Virus record (IMG/VR): IMGVR_UViG_3300020119_000096
Coordinates: 1 to 34,838 of that record
Source of the DNA: a virus
Length of the DNA: 34,838 nucleotides
Strand: one strand, 5' to 3'
This document shows, piece after piece, positions 3,992 through 15,725 of this stretch. The position numbers were made by a program, and so were the translations under genes. The notes beneath the pieces are model-generated. The model made no database searches. It saw only the letters and a list, made by a program, of their open reading frames with translations, and was not told the origin of the DNA. Position 1 is the first letter of the stretch. Every line of letters starts with the position of its first letter.

Positions 3992-4203
3992 TCGCTCCTC
4001 GCTTGGGAATGTTCATCGCGTTGAATCGTCACGTTCTGGAGATACCACCGCATCGTCCACGCTCCACCCACCACACCTATGAATCCCCCGAGGAACCCGC
4101 CCATCATCCACGGGAGGAGACCGGGGGGACAGGAGAAGAGGCTCATCGGCAAATCCCCAAAGCGCGGTATGTCCTCATTCTGTCGCGGCTGCACGTACGA
4201 CAT
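3988..4203 (-). CDS. Single-pass membrane protein, 71 aa
   Basis: A 71-residue protein with one hydrophobic stretch at about residues 33-53 (PWMMGGFLGGFIGVVGG), glycine-rich like a small inner-membrane helix, and a charged C-terminus (QRDEHSQARSE). A good ribosome-binding site (GGAAGG) precedes the ATG at 4203, so this start is preferred over longer frames. The gene lies mostly downstream of, and overlaps by 61 bases, the HNH endonuclease gene, which suggests the HNH gene arrived later and ran into it. Function unknown. Confidence 0.65.
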   Translation of the reverse strand: MSYVQPRQNEDIPRFGDLPMSLFSCPPGLLPWMMGGFLGGFIGVVGGAWTMRWYLQNVTIQRDEHSQARSE

Positions 4204-4580
4204 GACCTTCCCCTCTCGGATATGTAGGTGTTGGCCCCATTGAACGGATGCCCGACCTTGCAGTGTGTCTTCCGGGCGTTCATGGCCGTGTGCCCTTCTA
4301 CACGCAGAAAATTGTCGCCACGGGTCACGGGTTCTAGATGGTCGGGATTGACACACCCTCGGTTGCGACACAAATGGTCAAGGGTCAGCCCATCGGGTAT
4401 TGGGCCTTTGGTGTGCTCATACATTCTTCGGTGGGCTCGTCTGGGGGCGCGGCTACCCCATAGCCCATATCCGTCCGGTGATTGAGCCCCCACCCACTCC
4501 CAACAGCCGTTCTCCTGAATGATGTAGCCGATGGGACGTGTGCTTTGTGCATCATTTAGTTGTACAAATACCCCAACCAT
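4143..4580 (-). CDS. HNH endonuclease (free-standing homing type), copy 1
   Basis: The 145-residue protein has an N-terminal GCWEWVG segment, the HNH core LTLDHLCRNRGCVNPDHLEP (D68-H69, N79, H81) and a C-terminal zinc-like NARKTHCKVGHPF...CRTC module. This is the HNH_3 architecture of phage-borne homing endonucleases, which nick or cut related genomes lacking the gene. It is one of four members of the same subfamily in this window. Its first residues (GVFVQLND) closely match those of copy 2 (GVFVQLNE). The 3' end overlaps the membrane-protein gene, and a 10-bp inverted repeat (4598-4607 / 4650-4659) lies just upstream of its start. Confidence 0.9.
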   Translation of the reverse strand: MVGVFVQLNDAQSTRPIGYIIQENGCWEWVGAQSPDGYGLWGSRAPRRAHRRMYEHTKGPIPDGLTLDHLCRNRGCVNPDHLEPVTRGDNFLRVEGHTAMNARKTHCKVGHPFNGANTYISERGRSCRTCSRDRMRTYRALGICR

Positions 4581-6897: not shown

Positions 6898-7184
6898 GGG
6901 GTGTCGCCTCCGAGCTGTGAGGTGAGCCAGTCACGGGTCGCCTCCCATGACTTCGTCTCGACCATCTTCTGCGCCACTTCCTCCAGCGTGGCCTGCCGGG
7001 TCGCGGCGTGCTGGGCGGCGCGGTTCTCAGGACGATCCGATGCGCGGCGTTCCAGTCCACGGTTGTCGAGGACGCGCTTCGAGCCCTTGCAGAGGTCGCA
7101 GACGGCCTCGTAGGTCCCGGCGTCTTCATCGAGGTGGCGCACGACATAGCCGCGTCCACCACAGTCACGGCACGGATAGCTCAT
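6894..7184 (-). CDS. DnaJ-type zinc-finger protein, 96 aa
   Basis: The N-terminus, MSYPCRDCGGRGYVV, followed by CDLCKGSKRV, forms a CxxCxGxG...CxxCxGs pair, one DnaJ-like zinc site. The rest is a helical arginine- and glutamate-rich segment. It is the second such module in the operon (compare 6272-6442). The start at 7184 overlaps the HNH stop by four bases. Confidence 0.65.
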   Translation of the reverse strand: MSYPCRDCGGRGYVVRHLDEDAGTYEAVCDLCKGSKRVLDNRGLERRASDRPENRAAQHAATRQATLEEVAQKMVETKSWEATRDWLTSQLGGDTP

Positions 7185-7657
7185 CGGGCACCTCGGGCGC
7201 GGAGGAAGGCGATGGCTCGCTCCCGCTCGCGGCAGCGTTGAGCGTGGGTCTTACGGCATGTCTTGCAGTATCGAATCCACCGACCTTCAGCCAGTCGAGT
7301 GCCATCTAGTGGATGTCCGTGTATACAAGAGTTTTTACGGGCGTTGCGGGCTGGCGGCCCGAATCCCCGAAGAACGTTGTCTTTGTTGCTCACGGGTTCG
7401 AGGTGATCCGGATTCACGCAAGCGCGATTCCGGCAGAGGTGGTCAAGGGTGAGACCGTCTGGGATTGGCCACTTGTGCTGCTCAAAGACGAAACGGTGGG
7501 CTCTGATGTTGTGCGTGCCATTCCAGATTCTTCCATAGCCATCCTTGCTGAGTGGCCCAACCCAATCCCAGCACCCATTTTCTTGCAGGACGTAGCCGAG
7601 AGGATACTTTCTCGCCATGTGCGACTTTTCGTTGAGCTGCACAAAAACACCCATCAT
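7181..7657 (-). CDS. HNH endonuclease (free-standing homing type), copy 2
   Basis: The 158-residue product has GCWDWVG, the HNH core LTLDHLCRNRACVNPDHLEP and the C-terminal NARKNSCIHGHP...CKTCRKTH module, the same layout as copies 1, 3 and 4. The opening GVFVQLNE is nearly identical to copy 1, pointing to duplication within this phage lineage. It begins with two adjacent ATG codons (7657 and 7654) overlapping the stop of the HTH gene, so it is transcribed with the early operon. Confidence 0.9.
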   Translation of the reverse strand: MMGVFVQLNEKSHMARKYPLGYVLQENGCWDWVGPLSKDGYGRIWNGTHNIRAHRFVFEQHKWPIPDGLTLDHLCRNRACVNPDHLEPVSNKDNVLRGFGPPARNARKNSCIHGHPLDGTRLAEGRWIRYCKTCRKTHAQRCRERERAIAFLRARGAR

Positions 7658-10890: not shown

Positions 10891-11115
10891 ATGGCCAATG
10901 AACCGACTGCCTACGAAAAACGTCTCGCAGAGCTAGTTGCCGAGGGGTTGAAGGACCAAGCCATCGCCGATGAACTGCGCGGCAAATACCCCACCATCAC
11001 CCCACGGGCGGTGCGGGACCACATCGACCGCCTACGCCAGAAGCTTCCCGGCAATCTTCCCGCAAGGGCGAGAATTTCGGTCTGGGTGGCGGATCAACGG
11101 AGGGGAAACCCATGA
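10891..11115 (+). CDS. LuxR/GerE-type HTH regulator, 74 aa
   Basis: A 74-residue protein, nearly all of it one LuxR-type helix-turn-helix: EKRLAELVAEGLKDQAIADE, LRGKYPTITPRAVRDHIDRLRQKL. The order GL-(x)-IA-L and T-RAVR-HI is diagnostic of the GerE/LuxR C-terminal DNA-binding domain. It has no receiver or ligand domain, so it probably binds DNA constitutively as a dimer. It heads the rightward operon next to the divergent control region, where a regulator would be expected to act. Confidence 0.75.
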   Translation: MANEPTAYEKRLAELVAEGLKDQAIADELRGKYPTITPRAVRDHIDRLRQKLPGNLPARARISVWVADQRRGNP

Positions 11116-11591
11116 TTGCGGATGGCGGGAAAGAACAAGCGATGAGCGAGCAGTATTACCACCGCCCGGATATATCGTGGCTTCGGCCTCTCACTAAGGG
11201 CGGGGAGCGGCGTCCATCGTTTGTTGAAAGTGTTACCGGGTGTTGGATTTGGCAGGGGCACGTCAACAACGGGGGCTATCCGCAAACCAAGATAGGGCGG
11301 AAGTCACATCGCGCCCACCGCGTCTTTTACGAGCATTTCGTGGGGGCCATTCCCGAGGGGATGACTCTTGACCATCTCTGCGGCAACCGCAAATGCGTCA
11401 ATCCGGCGCACCTAGAACCCACCACCATTCGGGATAATACGATGCGGTCAAATTCTATCAGTGCAATCAACGCACGGAAGACGCATTGCATCTGGGGCCA
11501 TTCCGATTGGGTGGCGCGGGAAGCGCCCTATGAGAATCAGCGGCGTTGTAGGGCTTGTCGTGCCGCCAAGCGCGTGGTGGAGGCGAAATGA
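11112..11591 (+). CDS. HNH endonuclease (free-standing homing type), copy 3
   Basis: A 159-residue protein with GCWIWQG, the HNH core MTLDHLCGNRKCVNPAHLEP, and NARKTHCIWGH...CRACRAAKR at the C-terminus, the same subfamily as copies 1, 2 and 4 but on the plus strand. The ATG at 11112 overlaps the regulator's stop (ATGA); a second start 10 codons later (MSEQYYHRP) is possible. It probably spreads by copying itself into genomes lacking it. Confidence 0.9.
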   Translation: MIADGGKEQAMSEQYYHRPDISWLRPLTKGGERRPSFVESVTGCWIWQGHVNNGGYPQTKIGRKSHRAHRVFYEHFVGAIPEGMTLDHLCGNRKCVNPAHLEPTTIRDNTMRSNSISAINARKTHCIWGHSDWVAREAPYENQRRCRACRAAKRVVEAK

Positions 11592-12856: not shown

Positions 12857-13101
12857 GGGGCACCGATCCGAGCGAGGAGGGCGCGGATTGCGCCCACGCT
12901 CTTGCCGTCGATGTAGACGGTGTCATTGGAGCGGCCCACCGCATTGCCGGACACGGCGCGAAGCAGCTCCAGCATCTCCGGCGCGGCGGCGATCAGGCGG
13001 GCGGTGTAATCATCCCTTGCGCTCGTTGCAGAAGCGGCAACAGAGGCAGAGGTTAGCGGCTGTGTGCTGGCCGCCATTGGCACGGGAAACGATGTGGTCA
13101 T
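12853..13101 (-). CDS. LIAAAPE-motif protein with displaced N-terminus
   Basis: The C-terminal part (YTARLIAAAPEMLELLRAVS, then VYIDGKSVGAIRALLARIG) carries the widespread phage motif ANARLIAAAPELLEAL. In relatives this is preceded by a longer N-terminal region. Here the frame continues upstream only as 3'-end sequence of the HNH gene (starts at 13101 or 13077 would give 82 or 74 residues, with a serine/alanine-rich lead). I suspect the original N-terminus was lost when the HNH gene inserted, so the gene may be a remnant still read from an internal start. Confidence 0.4.
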   Translation of the reverse strand: MTTSFPVPMAASTQPLTSASVAASATSARDDYTARLIAAAPEMLELLRAVSGNAVGRSNDTVYIDGKSVGAIRALLARIGAP

Positions 13102-13462
13102 ATCCCACCGGGTGTGTTGGGGTGAAGCGGGGCCTTACGGTTGCGCCACAGTAAACGCACACCTTGTCCCGCTCGTAAATCGCTATCAGGTCAGCTCTTG
13201 TAACGTCTCCAGCGAGGAGCCATGCGAGGCGCTTTTGATACTGGGCGGCGTCCACTTCTGGCTTGCGCCGTCTGCGCCGATTGGCGCGGTATTGCTCTCG
13301 CCGTTCTTTGCGGGCGCGATGTTCGCCGCGCCGTTTCTGCTCTAGGTACTTCTCGGGGTTTGCCTTGCGCCACGCCTTGACGGCGAGGCGGGCGCAATTG
13401 AGGCATCGGGGCCGGGAGAGCATTTCGCCGCTCCATCCACAGCTAAGGCAGGTGTAGGTCAT
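13010..13462 (-). CDS. HNH endonuclease with N-terminal zinc finger (different subfamily)
   Basis: The 150-residue protein has an N-terminal CLSCGWSGEMLSRPRCLNC zinc module, a basic arginine-rich middle (residues about 45-80) and a classic HNH core: KVCVYCGAT, VGYDHIVSRANGGQH, TAANLCLCCRFCNERKG. The McrA-like CxxC pairs and DHI/NL...CxxCN order differ from the other four endonucleases here. ATG 13462 directly follows a candidate promoter (13468-13496) and the left junction of the captured host DNA. The 3' end overlaps the LIAAAPE-motif gene by 92 bases. Confidence 0.9.
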   Translation of the reverse strand: MTYTCLSCGWSGEMLSRPRCLNCARLAVKAWRKANPEKYLEQKRRGEHRARKERREQYRANRRRRRKPEVDAAQYQKRLAWLLAGDVTRADLIAIYERDKVCVYCGATVRPRFTPTHPVGYDHIVSRANGGQHTAANLCLCCRFCNERKG

Positions 13463-13467
13463 GCCCC

Positions 13468-13496
13468 AAGATACACACCCCCAACCCGACAAACAA
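13468..13496 (-). promoter_or_regulatory. Candidate promoter for HNH gene, nearly leaderless
   Basis: On the minus strand TTGTTT (13496-13491) and TATCTT (13473-13468) are separated by exactly 17 bases. The -10 hexamer ends five bases before the ATG at 13462, so a transcript would begin at or next to the start codon (leaderless). The -10 resembles the TACCTT found at two other sites in the window. Confidence 0.4.
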
Positions 13497-13506
13497 GGCC
13501 GGGGGT

Positions 13507-13677
13507 ATGGGTGGTCATGTTCACGGTCGGGACATCGCGGCGGGGATCGTGCTGGTGCGGGAGGCGGGAGGGGTCGTGACCGACCTCGCGGGGAGGACGA
13601 TCGGGGCCGAGCACACCGGGGTGGTGGCGGGGAGCCCGCAGATGCATGAGTGGCTCCTTCGTCAGCTGCACGATTAA
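13507..13677 (+). pseudogene. 3' fragment of inositol monophosphatase gene (suhB-like)
   Basis: From about 13531 the plus strand encodes RDIAAGIVLVREAGGVVTD, LAGRTIGAEHTGVVAGSPQM and a short helix ending at TAA 13675-13677. This is the C-terminal end of inositol-1-monophosphatase family enzymes: (W)DIAAG...EAGG is the motif contributing a metal-binding aspartate, and VAG(S/N)P precedes the last helix. The rest of the enzyme (about 200 residues) is missing; the frame opens at ATG 13507 with a non-homologous lead, and the usual W before DIAAG is R. Nearly all codons end in G or C. It is a truncated bacterial gene, best read as one end of a captured chromosomal segment. Confidence 0.8.
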
Positions 13678-13722
13678 CCGCCGGCGGGTCGGGAGTTGGG
13701 AGTCGGGAGGGATGAAATGATG

Positions 13723-13750
13723 AGAGCCGTCCGATCGTGGACGGCTCTTT
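13723..13750. terminator. Hairpin terminator between suhB fragment and map
   Basis: AGAGCCGTCC (13723-13732) and GGACGGCTCT (13739-13748) form a perfect 10-bp stem with a six-base loop, followed by TTT on the plus strand. It lies exactly between the convergent ends of the suhB fragment and map, as expected for a bidirectional bacterial terminator. It is enclosed by a second perfect inverted repeat, GGAGTCGGGAG (13699-13709) and CTCCCGACTCC (13769-13779). Confidence 0.8.
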
Positions 13751-13786
13751 GCCTTGCACCCCTCCTGGCTCCCGACTCCGGACCAC

Positions 13787-14536
13787 CTACGCCGTCGTCA
13801 GGATCACCGGCCCATTCTCCGTGACCGCCACCGTGTGCTCGAAGTGCGCCGAGAGGGAGCCGTCCATCGTGACGACGGTCCACTTGTCGTCGAGGGTGCG
13901 AGTGGCGGGGTCGCCGGCGGTGATCATCGGCTCGATGGCGATGGTCATCCCGACCTTGAGGAGGGGGCCCCGCTTGGGGCGGCCGTAGTTGGGGACCTGC
14001 GGCTCCTCGTGGAAGGTGCGGCCGATCCCGTGCCCCACGAGCTCCCGCACCACCCCGAACCCGGCCCCTTCGGCGACGTTCTGCACCGCGTGGCCGATGT
14101 CGCCGACGTGGTTCCCGGCGCGCGCCTCCTTGATCCCGGTATAGAGCGACTCCTCGGTGACCGTGAGGAGGCGCTGGGCTTCGGGGGAGACCTCGCCCAC
14201 GGCGTAGGTGTAGGCGGAGTCGGCGTGGAGCCCGTCGACCTGGACCCCGACGTCAGCGGTGAAGAGGCTCCCCTCGCCGAGGACCCGCTTCTTGGAGGGG
14301 ATCCCGTGGACGATCTCCTCGTTGATCGAGGTGCAGAGGGTCGCGGGGAAGCCGTAGAGCCCCTTGAACGACGGGATCCCCCCCTGGCCGCGGATGTACT
14401 CCTCGGCGAGGCGGTCGAGCTCCCAGGTCGAGATCCCGGGGCGCACGTGGCGCTTGAGGTCCTGGAGCACGCCGAAGACGATGCGGCCGGCGGCGCGCAT
14501 CGTGTCGAGTTCGGAGCGGGACTTGAGGGTGACCAC
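13787..14536 (-). CDS. map: Type I methionine aminopeptidase
   Basis: A complete 249-residue enzyme that removes the initiator methionine from new proteins. All expected residues are visible and keep the E. coli spacing (offset by two): H77 in NEEIVHGIP, metal ligands D95 (ADVGV), D106 (HADSA), H169 (VGHGIGRTFHEEP), E202 (IAIEPM) and E233 (HFEHTVAV), plus H176. It should be active. The GTG at 14536 gives the usual family length (about 250); frames reaching 14749 are an out-of-frame reading of the upstream chimeric ORF. It starts five bases after the adk-like fragment stops, the normal adk-map order of bacterial spc operons. In the first 55 codons only one does not end in G or C, unlike phage genes, so recent transfer from a bacterium is likely. 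Confidence 0.95.
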   Translation of the reverse strand: MVTLKSRSELDTMRAAGRIVFGVLQDLKRHVRPGISTWELDRLAEEYIRGQGGIPSFKGLYGFPATLCTSINEEIVHGIPSKKRVLGEGSLFTADVGVQVDGLHADSAYTYAVGEVSPEAQRLLTVTEESLYTGIKEARAGNHVGDIGHAVQNVAEGAGFGVVRELVGHGIGRTFHEEPQVPNYGRPKRGPLLKVGMTIAIEPMITAGDPATRTLDDKWTVVTMDGSLSAHFEHTVAVTENGPVILTTA

Positions 14537-14541
14537 CGTCG

Positions 14542-14712
14542 TTACCGGCCGAGGATCTTCCGCACCCGCGCGCTCACCTCGTCCACCGTGCCGACGGCGT
14601 CGACGGTGTGGACGGTGCCGCCGAACTCCCGCACCATCCGGCCGCCGATATAACCCTTCCAGTTGCCCCAGATGTTTTGCTTGACGGTCACCTTCGGTTC
14701 CTTGCGGGCCAT
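14542..14712 (-). CDS. Chimeric ORF: phage N-terminus fused to adenylate kinase C-terminus
   Basis: A 56-residue frame from ATG 14712 (with GAGGATG-type upstream sequence) to TAA 14542-14544. Residues 1-32 (MARKEPKVTVKQNIWGNWKG, YIGGRMVREFGG) use mixed codons like other phage genes and look like a small phage protein. Residues 33-56 (VHTVDAVGTVDEVSARVRKI, LGR) look like the last helix of bacterial adenylate kinase (VDG..-(x)-EV...I...L), and every one of these codons ends in G or C. The switch at about 14612-14620 probably marks the right end of the captured segment. The hybrid cannot be an active kinase, but it may couple translation to map. Confidence 0.65.
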   Translation of the reverse strand: MARKEPKVTVKQNIWGNWKGYIGGRMVREFGGTVHTVDAVGTVDEVSARVRKILGR

Positions 14713-14792
14713 ACATCCTCACAGGGTAAGGGGGACAGCCATCATTCACAGTACGAAATTACCACCATCCCCCAGCAATGCAATAGCGGTAA

Positions 14793-14805
14793 TTGTAACA
14801 GTTTC
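14793..14805. promoter_or_regulatory. Shared 13-bp motif TTGTAACAGTTTC, copy 2
   Basis: TTGTAACAGTTTC, followed by a C-rich run, is identical to 10817-10829; in both places CAATAG stands a short distance to its left. Its TGTTACA core (minus strand) is nearly palindromic. Both copies lie in divergent intergenic regions, suggesting a binding site for one regulator. Which regulator is unknown. Confidence 0.4.
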
Positions 14806-14980
14806 TCCCCGCCCCCCCGATGAAACCCCGAACTCCTCTAGGACTGACAAACTACCCCAAGCTCGATATCCTATGGCTTGGGTGGGGGTCGATGCGTCCT
14901 ACGCGATTCTCGCGGCAACCAGAGGCATTGCGGGAGAGCTTCGGGAGTCTATCCGTACACTGTCACGCCACCGTGTTCAT

Positions 14981-15009
14981 TTGACACAAGGCCCTGCATG
15001 TCTTACCTT
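14981..15009 (+). promoter_or_regulatory. Candidate late promoter upstream of TerS
   Basis: TTGACA (14981-14986), 17 bases, TACCTT (15004-15009), about 120 bases before the TerS start. A second promoter at 18896-18924 has the same -10 (TACCTT), the same 17-base spacing and nearly the same -35. The dyad GTGTTCATTTGACACA (14973-14988) overlaps the -35, and ACACTGTC (14957-14964) lies just upstream. Confidence 0.6.
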
Positions 15010-15131
15010 CCTCCCATGACTTACCACTTCCTGTCAAGGGGATGGAACCCACATAATCACTGGGCCCATCGCTCACACCCCCAAACACCGGTTATCTTGT
15101 CGGGGGGCAATGTGGGGGGCGCGACAGCGTA

Positions 15132-15725
15132 ATGGCATCCCAGCCCATCAAACGCCAGATGATTACCCAGCTCGCCTCTCTGGCTAACCCTGACTCCCTC
15201 AATCTCCCTCCCGATACCACCGAAGACGATGCCGCCTTCGCCTACCTCCTCGCCTACATGGAGAACGGCGGTCGGTTGTCCCGCCTCGCCTCAGACCTCA
15301 ACGTGTCCCGCTTCCTGTTGGATCGCTGGGTGAAGGGAACGCCCGAGCGAGCTTCCCAGTTCTCCCGTGCGCGTGCGCGTGGGGCGGACGCGTTGGTAGA
15401 TGAGGGGGGCGACTTGTTGGACCGGGCGACGCGGGATGATGTGGCCGTAGCCAATGCCCGGGCGGGATGGCGGAAGTGGCTGGCGGGGAAGGTGAACCCC
15501 GAGGAGTGGGGGGAGAGCAAGCAGGGGGCGCCCCTCATCGGTAGCCTGCACCTGCATGCCGCGCTGTCCCGTCCCCAGCTGCAGGGAGCCGATAATTCCC
15601 CGAAGCCCCCCCTTCTGGGTCCTCCACTCGGGCAGCGGGAGGCCGGGTACCTAACAGAGAGTGAGATAGTGGGGGAGCCCGAGTTTCACGTGGAACACCC
15701 CCCTACCCCTGTCGATGGGGAATGA
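15132..15725 (+). CDS. Terminase small subunit (TerS), Sf6-like
   Basis: A 197-residue protein that recognises phage DNA for packaging. After an acidic lead it has a helix-turn-helix segment (SRLASDLNVSRFLLDRWVKG) followed by QFSRARARGADALVDEGGDL and then NARAGWRKWLAGKVNPEEWG, the helical order typical of Sf6-type small terminase subunits (DNA-binding N-terminus, oligomerisation middle). The proline-rich C-terminal 60 residues probably contact TerL. It is separated from TerL by four small genes. No strong ribosome-binding site precedes the ATG. Confidence 0.8.
   Translation: MASQPIKRQMITQLASLANPDSLNLPPDTTEDDAAFAYLLAYMENGGRLSRLASDLNVSRFLLDRWVKGTPERASQFSRARARGADALVDEGGDLLDRATRDDVAVANARAGWRKWLAGKVNPEEWGESKQGAPLIGSLHLHAALSRPQLQGADNSPKPPLLGPPLGQREAGYLTESEIVGEPEFHVEHPPTPVDGE

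Follow-up and report, generated by a model that had tools for sequence, protein, structure and literature searches.

The locus raises the question of how a small phage-like reading frame comes to end in the C-terminus of an adenylate kinase (Adk), directly ahead of a methionine aminopeptidase gene (map), and whether this arrangement arose in nature. It lies in the window, i.e., the whole stretch of DNA that was analysed, a linear IMG/VR virus record of 34,838 bp that contains neither tRNA genes nor Ns. The features needed for the argument are the following.

13010..13472, minus strand: HNH endonuclease reading frame (PF01844), the last phage gene left of the host segment
13529..14620, no strand: entire host-derived segment, about 1.09 kb, GC-rich, map GC3 97%
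13529..13677, plus strand: last 48 codons and stop of an inositol monophosphatase (IMPase)-type gene, up to 72% amino acid identity (L008)
13699..13784, no strand: imperfect inverted repeat between the convergent host genes, 72% self-match to the opposite strand
13787..14536, minus strand: map, intact type I methionine aminopeptidase, GTG start (PF00557, E = 1.4e-50)
14542..14619, minus strand: last 25 codons and stop of a Gemmatimonadota adk, directly upstream of map (E = 7e-6 against L009, 3e-5 against L038)
14620..14712, minus strand: 5' part of a small phage gene of the family QNIWGNWxGYxGxxxVxEFG, from family matches
14712..14542, minus strand: 56-codon hybrid ORF, by homology a phage N-terminus (codons 1-31) and an in-frame adk C-terminus (codons 32-56)
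15132..15725, plus strand: terminase small subunit (phrog_1482, PF20901), the first recognised phage gene right of the host segment
16642..18174, plus strand: terminase large subunit, 43% identity to phiM5 and the Manatee Spring phages

The hybrid reading frame

The hybrid ORF begins with ATG at 14712, ends with TAA at 14544-14542, and encodes 56 amino acids, MARKEPKVTVKQNIWGNWKGYIGGRMVREFG|GTVHTVDAVGTVDEVSARVRKILGR. Its stop lies 5 nt ahead of the GTG start of map. The initial annotation had described a phage N-terminus fused in frame to the C-terminus of Adk, with a change of character at about residue 32 and a frame that stays open until five bases before map. Homology was found for both halves and places the junction at codon 31/32, at about 14617-14622; at the level of sequence, the observation is confirmed as right and precise. 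Codon usage, which had also been taken to mark the breakpoint, does not do so, as A/T-ending codons number 4 of 31 before it and 0 of 25 after it, a difference that is not significant (Fisher p = 0.12). The fusion is thus proven by the homology on each side and not by the codon contrast.

Residues 1-31 resemble a family of small phage hypothetical proteins (e.g., BcepSaruman_012). A protein scan of IMG/VR with the hybrid returned five loci, with matches covering residues 3-31 or 10-55, and over residues 3-31 the identity to the family in these loci is 39-59%. One additional member, L149, was found when the core motif was searched as a degenerate DNA pattern, and tblastn against INPHARED gave weaker matches (E value 0.01-0.09) in the Burkholderia phages BcepSaruman and BcepSauron and in Pseudomonas phage Ep020. 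The aligned core common to the members is xQNIWGNWxGYxGxxxVxEFG, and the hybrid has this N-terminal core. All other members continue differently. The IMG/VR members proceed with TN/TD-xIAxAxW or close variants, and the sequences of BcepSaruman, BcepSauron and Ep020 also differ from that of the window past EFG/ELG. The protein of the window leaves the family precisely after EFG; the C-terminal half of the family, A-x-x-W-(L)-x-x-G, is not present, and GTVHTVDAVGTVDEV... stands in its place, so that where the closest members end in ...TDxIAxAxW... the hybrid has the adk tail instead. The missing 3' half of the small phage gene was sought across the window and is absent. The family with the QNIWGNWxGYxG core and a variable C-terminus is spread over unrelated phages (L180, L181, L182, L004, L005, and L149).

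Residues 32-56 align with the C-terminus of Gemmatimonadota Adk. Within a small set of Gemmatimonadota comparison loci, retrieved by way of map, the tail has 54-67% identity across 22-24 residues to several genomes (best E value 7e-6). In these loci the adk ORF ends in, e.g., ...WYEARGGVHRIPAVGTIEEISARVRRALGK (L009) or ...RRIPAVGTVAEIAARVRQALGR (L008), directly before or overlapping the start of map. The C-terminal strand and helix of Adk are likewise present directly before map in the window. The P-loop and the catalytic core are missing, only the last 25 residues having been kept. A Pfam search of the hybrid protein gave no match. The hybrid and one intact family member were also modelled with AlphaFold, but too poorly for use (mean pLDDT 58-59). 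Neither of the two contrary outcomes named in the initial annotation, a whole protein forming one phage family or a tail unrelated to Adk, was seen. That the 56 residues form one native phage family that resembles Adk by chance is extremely improbable and is ruled out by synteny: C-termini do vary among the family members, but residues 32-56 match the Adk end at the precise position of adk before a Gemmatimonadota map, and the DNA similarity of map passes into the tail without interruption, reaching 14616 in L158 and L162.

The host-derived segment

The segment contains the adk tail, an intact map and a convergent IMPase tail. In the map product, the M24 domain (PF00557) spans residues 12-240 and includes the motifs EEIVHG, ADVG, HADSAY, GHGIGRTFHEEP, IAIEP, and EHTV, with the metal ligands (D, D, H, E, E) and the catalytic residues retained. 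In Gemmatimonadota, homologues of the IMPase-type gene are located downstream of map in the same relative orientation. The gene in the window is cut just before ...DIAAG, which starts at 13531, and the left breakpoint is therefore at about 13529. This is the second edge of the host segment, where the left phage arm is joined just upstream of the cut gene. The inverted repeat between the two convergent genes (13699..13784) is possibly the native host terminator region and may have a terminator-like role; a scan with a terminator consensus found none.

Phylogenetically, map groups with Gemmatimonadota (support 99/97), outside the sampled members. The nearest donor found has 78% DNA identity, with no closer one in a phylum-wide search, so the true donor is unsampled. 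A search of plasmids gave distant map genes only.

The surrounding phage genome

The right part of the window encodes, on the plus strand, the small and large terminase subunits, an SU10-type portal, a scaffold, an SU10-type major capsid protein and other virion proteins. The left part, mostly on the minus strand, includes a DnaB-like helicase, a primosomal protein and HNH endonucleases. Three of the HNH endonuclease genes in the left arm belong to one family (phrog_826; 4143-4580, minus strand; 7181-7657, minus strand; 11112-11591, plus strand), suggesting repeated invasion by homing endonucleases. Between the divergent arms, about 420 bp (14713-15131) contain no convincing gene, and their position makes them a candidate site of the genome ends or of divergent promoters.

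The two arms belong together. Their tetranucleotide profiles correlate with r = 0.87, compared with 0.83-0.84 between halves within either arm, whereas the arms correlate at 0.35-0.68 with the compared phages and at 0.46-0.64 with the host loci. Because the profiles of the arms agree, the host segment sits inside one phage genome, and a window made of two different phages is ruled out by this composition. The map segment is, accordingly, a foreign gene between the modules of a single phage genome, as a moron is.

By terminase, the Manatee Spring phages and Sinorhizobium phage phiM5 are the closest named relatives (42-44% identity). Like the window, phiM5 and similar podoviruses (LUZ24-like relatives) have an SU10-type portal and capsid, a terminase and divergent early and late arms. 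They differ from it in that terminase identity to phiM5 is only about 43% and in that phiM5 has terminal repeats between the arms where the window has host genes. The physical ends of phiM5 (357-bp terminal repeats) occupy the equivalent position, with a leftward early arm on one side and rightward terminase genes on the other. By this analogy, foreign DNA may readily become attached at this position, either in vivo or in vitro. When the terminase and the left-arm helicase of the window were each scanned against IMG/VR as single proteins, no relatives were found. The major capsid protein of the phage was not found in any of 288 genomes from the order of the donor and, therefore, provides no independent link between phage and host.

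Origin and age of the join

We consider it probable that this is a real capture of about 1.1 kb of Gemmatimonadota chromosome by a podovirus-like phage, and we infer that both junctions exist in the DNA of that phage. The DNA would have been acquired by illegitimate (non-homologous) recombination, in the present lineage of the phage or very close to it. The insert would have taken the place of phage DNA that lay between the leftward HNH gene and the terminase genes, which point rightward, and would have cut the small leftward gene of the phage short behind its codon 31; the frame would have been kept at the junction by chance (1 in 3). A search for flanking repeats revealed no target-site duplication, and the longest word common to both flanks measures 11 bp where about 10 bp would be expected.

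The age of the join can be judged from the two tails, which have no evident use. At codon positions 1+2, the IMPase tail differs from the host copies by 0.265, against 0.279 among living host copies, and the adk tail by 0.359 against 0.328, within the range (maximum 0.435). GC3 is 90-100% in the host segment (97-100% in map and the adk tail), compared with 70-78% in phage genes. As there is no excess decay in the dead tails and GC3 has kept its host character, either the join is very young or the contig is chimeric.

A chimeric contig, with host and phage DNA joined in vitro (during library preparation or whole-genome amplification) or by the assembler, is a possible but somewhat unlikely explanation, under which the hybrid ORF would not occur in nature. 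The ends of the segment fall at random points within two host genes, and neither post-capture decay, judged by the codon-position pattern, nor amelioration of GC3 is seen. The exact scan for the right junction, run on a set of virus contigs from which near-identical records may be missing, gave no second contig, leaving the junction unique to one, and the position of the phiM5 genome ends is one at which end-joining chimeras could form. All of this would fit an artefact. Nevertheless, a chimera needs two independent junction artefacts on one short fragment, inside one phage. Furthermore, there is no long identity at the junctions to confuse an assembler, as far as the relatives show, and no Ns interrupt the sequence.

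Possible translation of map

If the capture is real, ribosomes entering at the phage gene start would terminate at the adk stop 5 nt before map. The junction would thereby incidentally restore the native spacing of adk and map, and map may be translated during infection. Transcription of the leftward unit would presumably come from a phage promoter; a promoter scan of this unit identified none and was uninformative. The initial annotation had gone further, suggesting that the fusion may keep the captured gene expressed through translational coupling. This reading is possible but unsupported apart from the anatomy, and the numbers do not favour it. If the phase of the junction is random, the observed ORF results in one case out of three; in another, translation would end after 14 codons, and in the remaining one it would proceed into map with no stop on the way. 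As another phase is also open and the chance is 1 in 3, the keeping of the frame is no evidence of selection. In host chromosomes, moreover, the stop of adk and the start of map overlap or nearly do so, and the fusion thus merely preserves the native arrangement.

We regard as improbable a selected moron, in which the frame has been maintained to couple translation of map to the phage start and to supply methionine aminopeptidase (MetAP) in infection. Such selection would agree with the preserved frame and the stop 5 nt before the GTG, with the intactness of map and its conserved active-site motifs, and with the presence of map in other phages. In addition, some phages cannot complete a late step without host MetAP: a point mutation in host metAP blocks this step in several cos-type streptococcal phages (PMC6761271). 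Retention of the frame is, however, a 1-in-3 event, the second phase likewise enters map without a stop, and adk-map coupling is already native to the host. No relative has the arrangement, and the useless host tails are uneroded, which leaves little time for selection. A benefit of MetAP to the phage is plausible. We find it distinctly doubtful that this is a phage just after capture of MetAP in which the fusion of leader ORF and adk already drives map by coupling and provides the phage with its own enzyme for processing N-terminal Met.

Comparison with known phage genes and significance

Phage morons and the capture of host genes by illegitimate recombination are a known class of events, of which the window is a further example. 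Like morons, it has a complete host gene, here with ragged chromosomal neighbours, of foreign base composition and between phage modules. In contrast to them, the capture is apparently very recent, phage sequence has been lost at the edge, map stands without a demonstrated promoter or terminator of its own, and the case is known from contig sequence. The same enzyme family occurs inside phage gene arrays in Vibrio phage V6Aob (XRQ87616.1) and in IMG/VR contig 3300025015_000024 (L088). These map genes are diverged and free-standing, with 35% and 45% identity, respectively, to the map of the window, which is instead plainly of Gemmatimonadota and has its host neighbours attached. The V6Aob gene (L183:2501-3304) is annotated as a phage type I methionyl aminopeptidase and constitutes a named precedent; that of L088 (2250-3026) lies among phage-like genes on a low-GC phage contig.

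If its junctions are real, the locus would be a rare snapshot, at base resolution, of the capture of a host gene by a phage, showing the phylum of the donor, the two breakpoints, the phage gene that was truncated and host flanks free of erosion. It would link an otherwise host-less podovirus to Gemmatimonadota, and would mark methionine aminopeptidase, which some phages need their host to supply, as a gene worth carrying.
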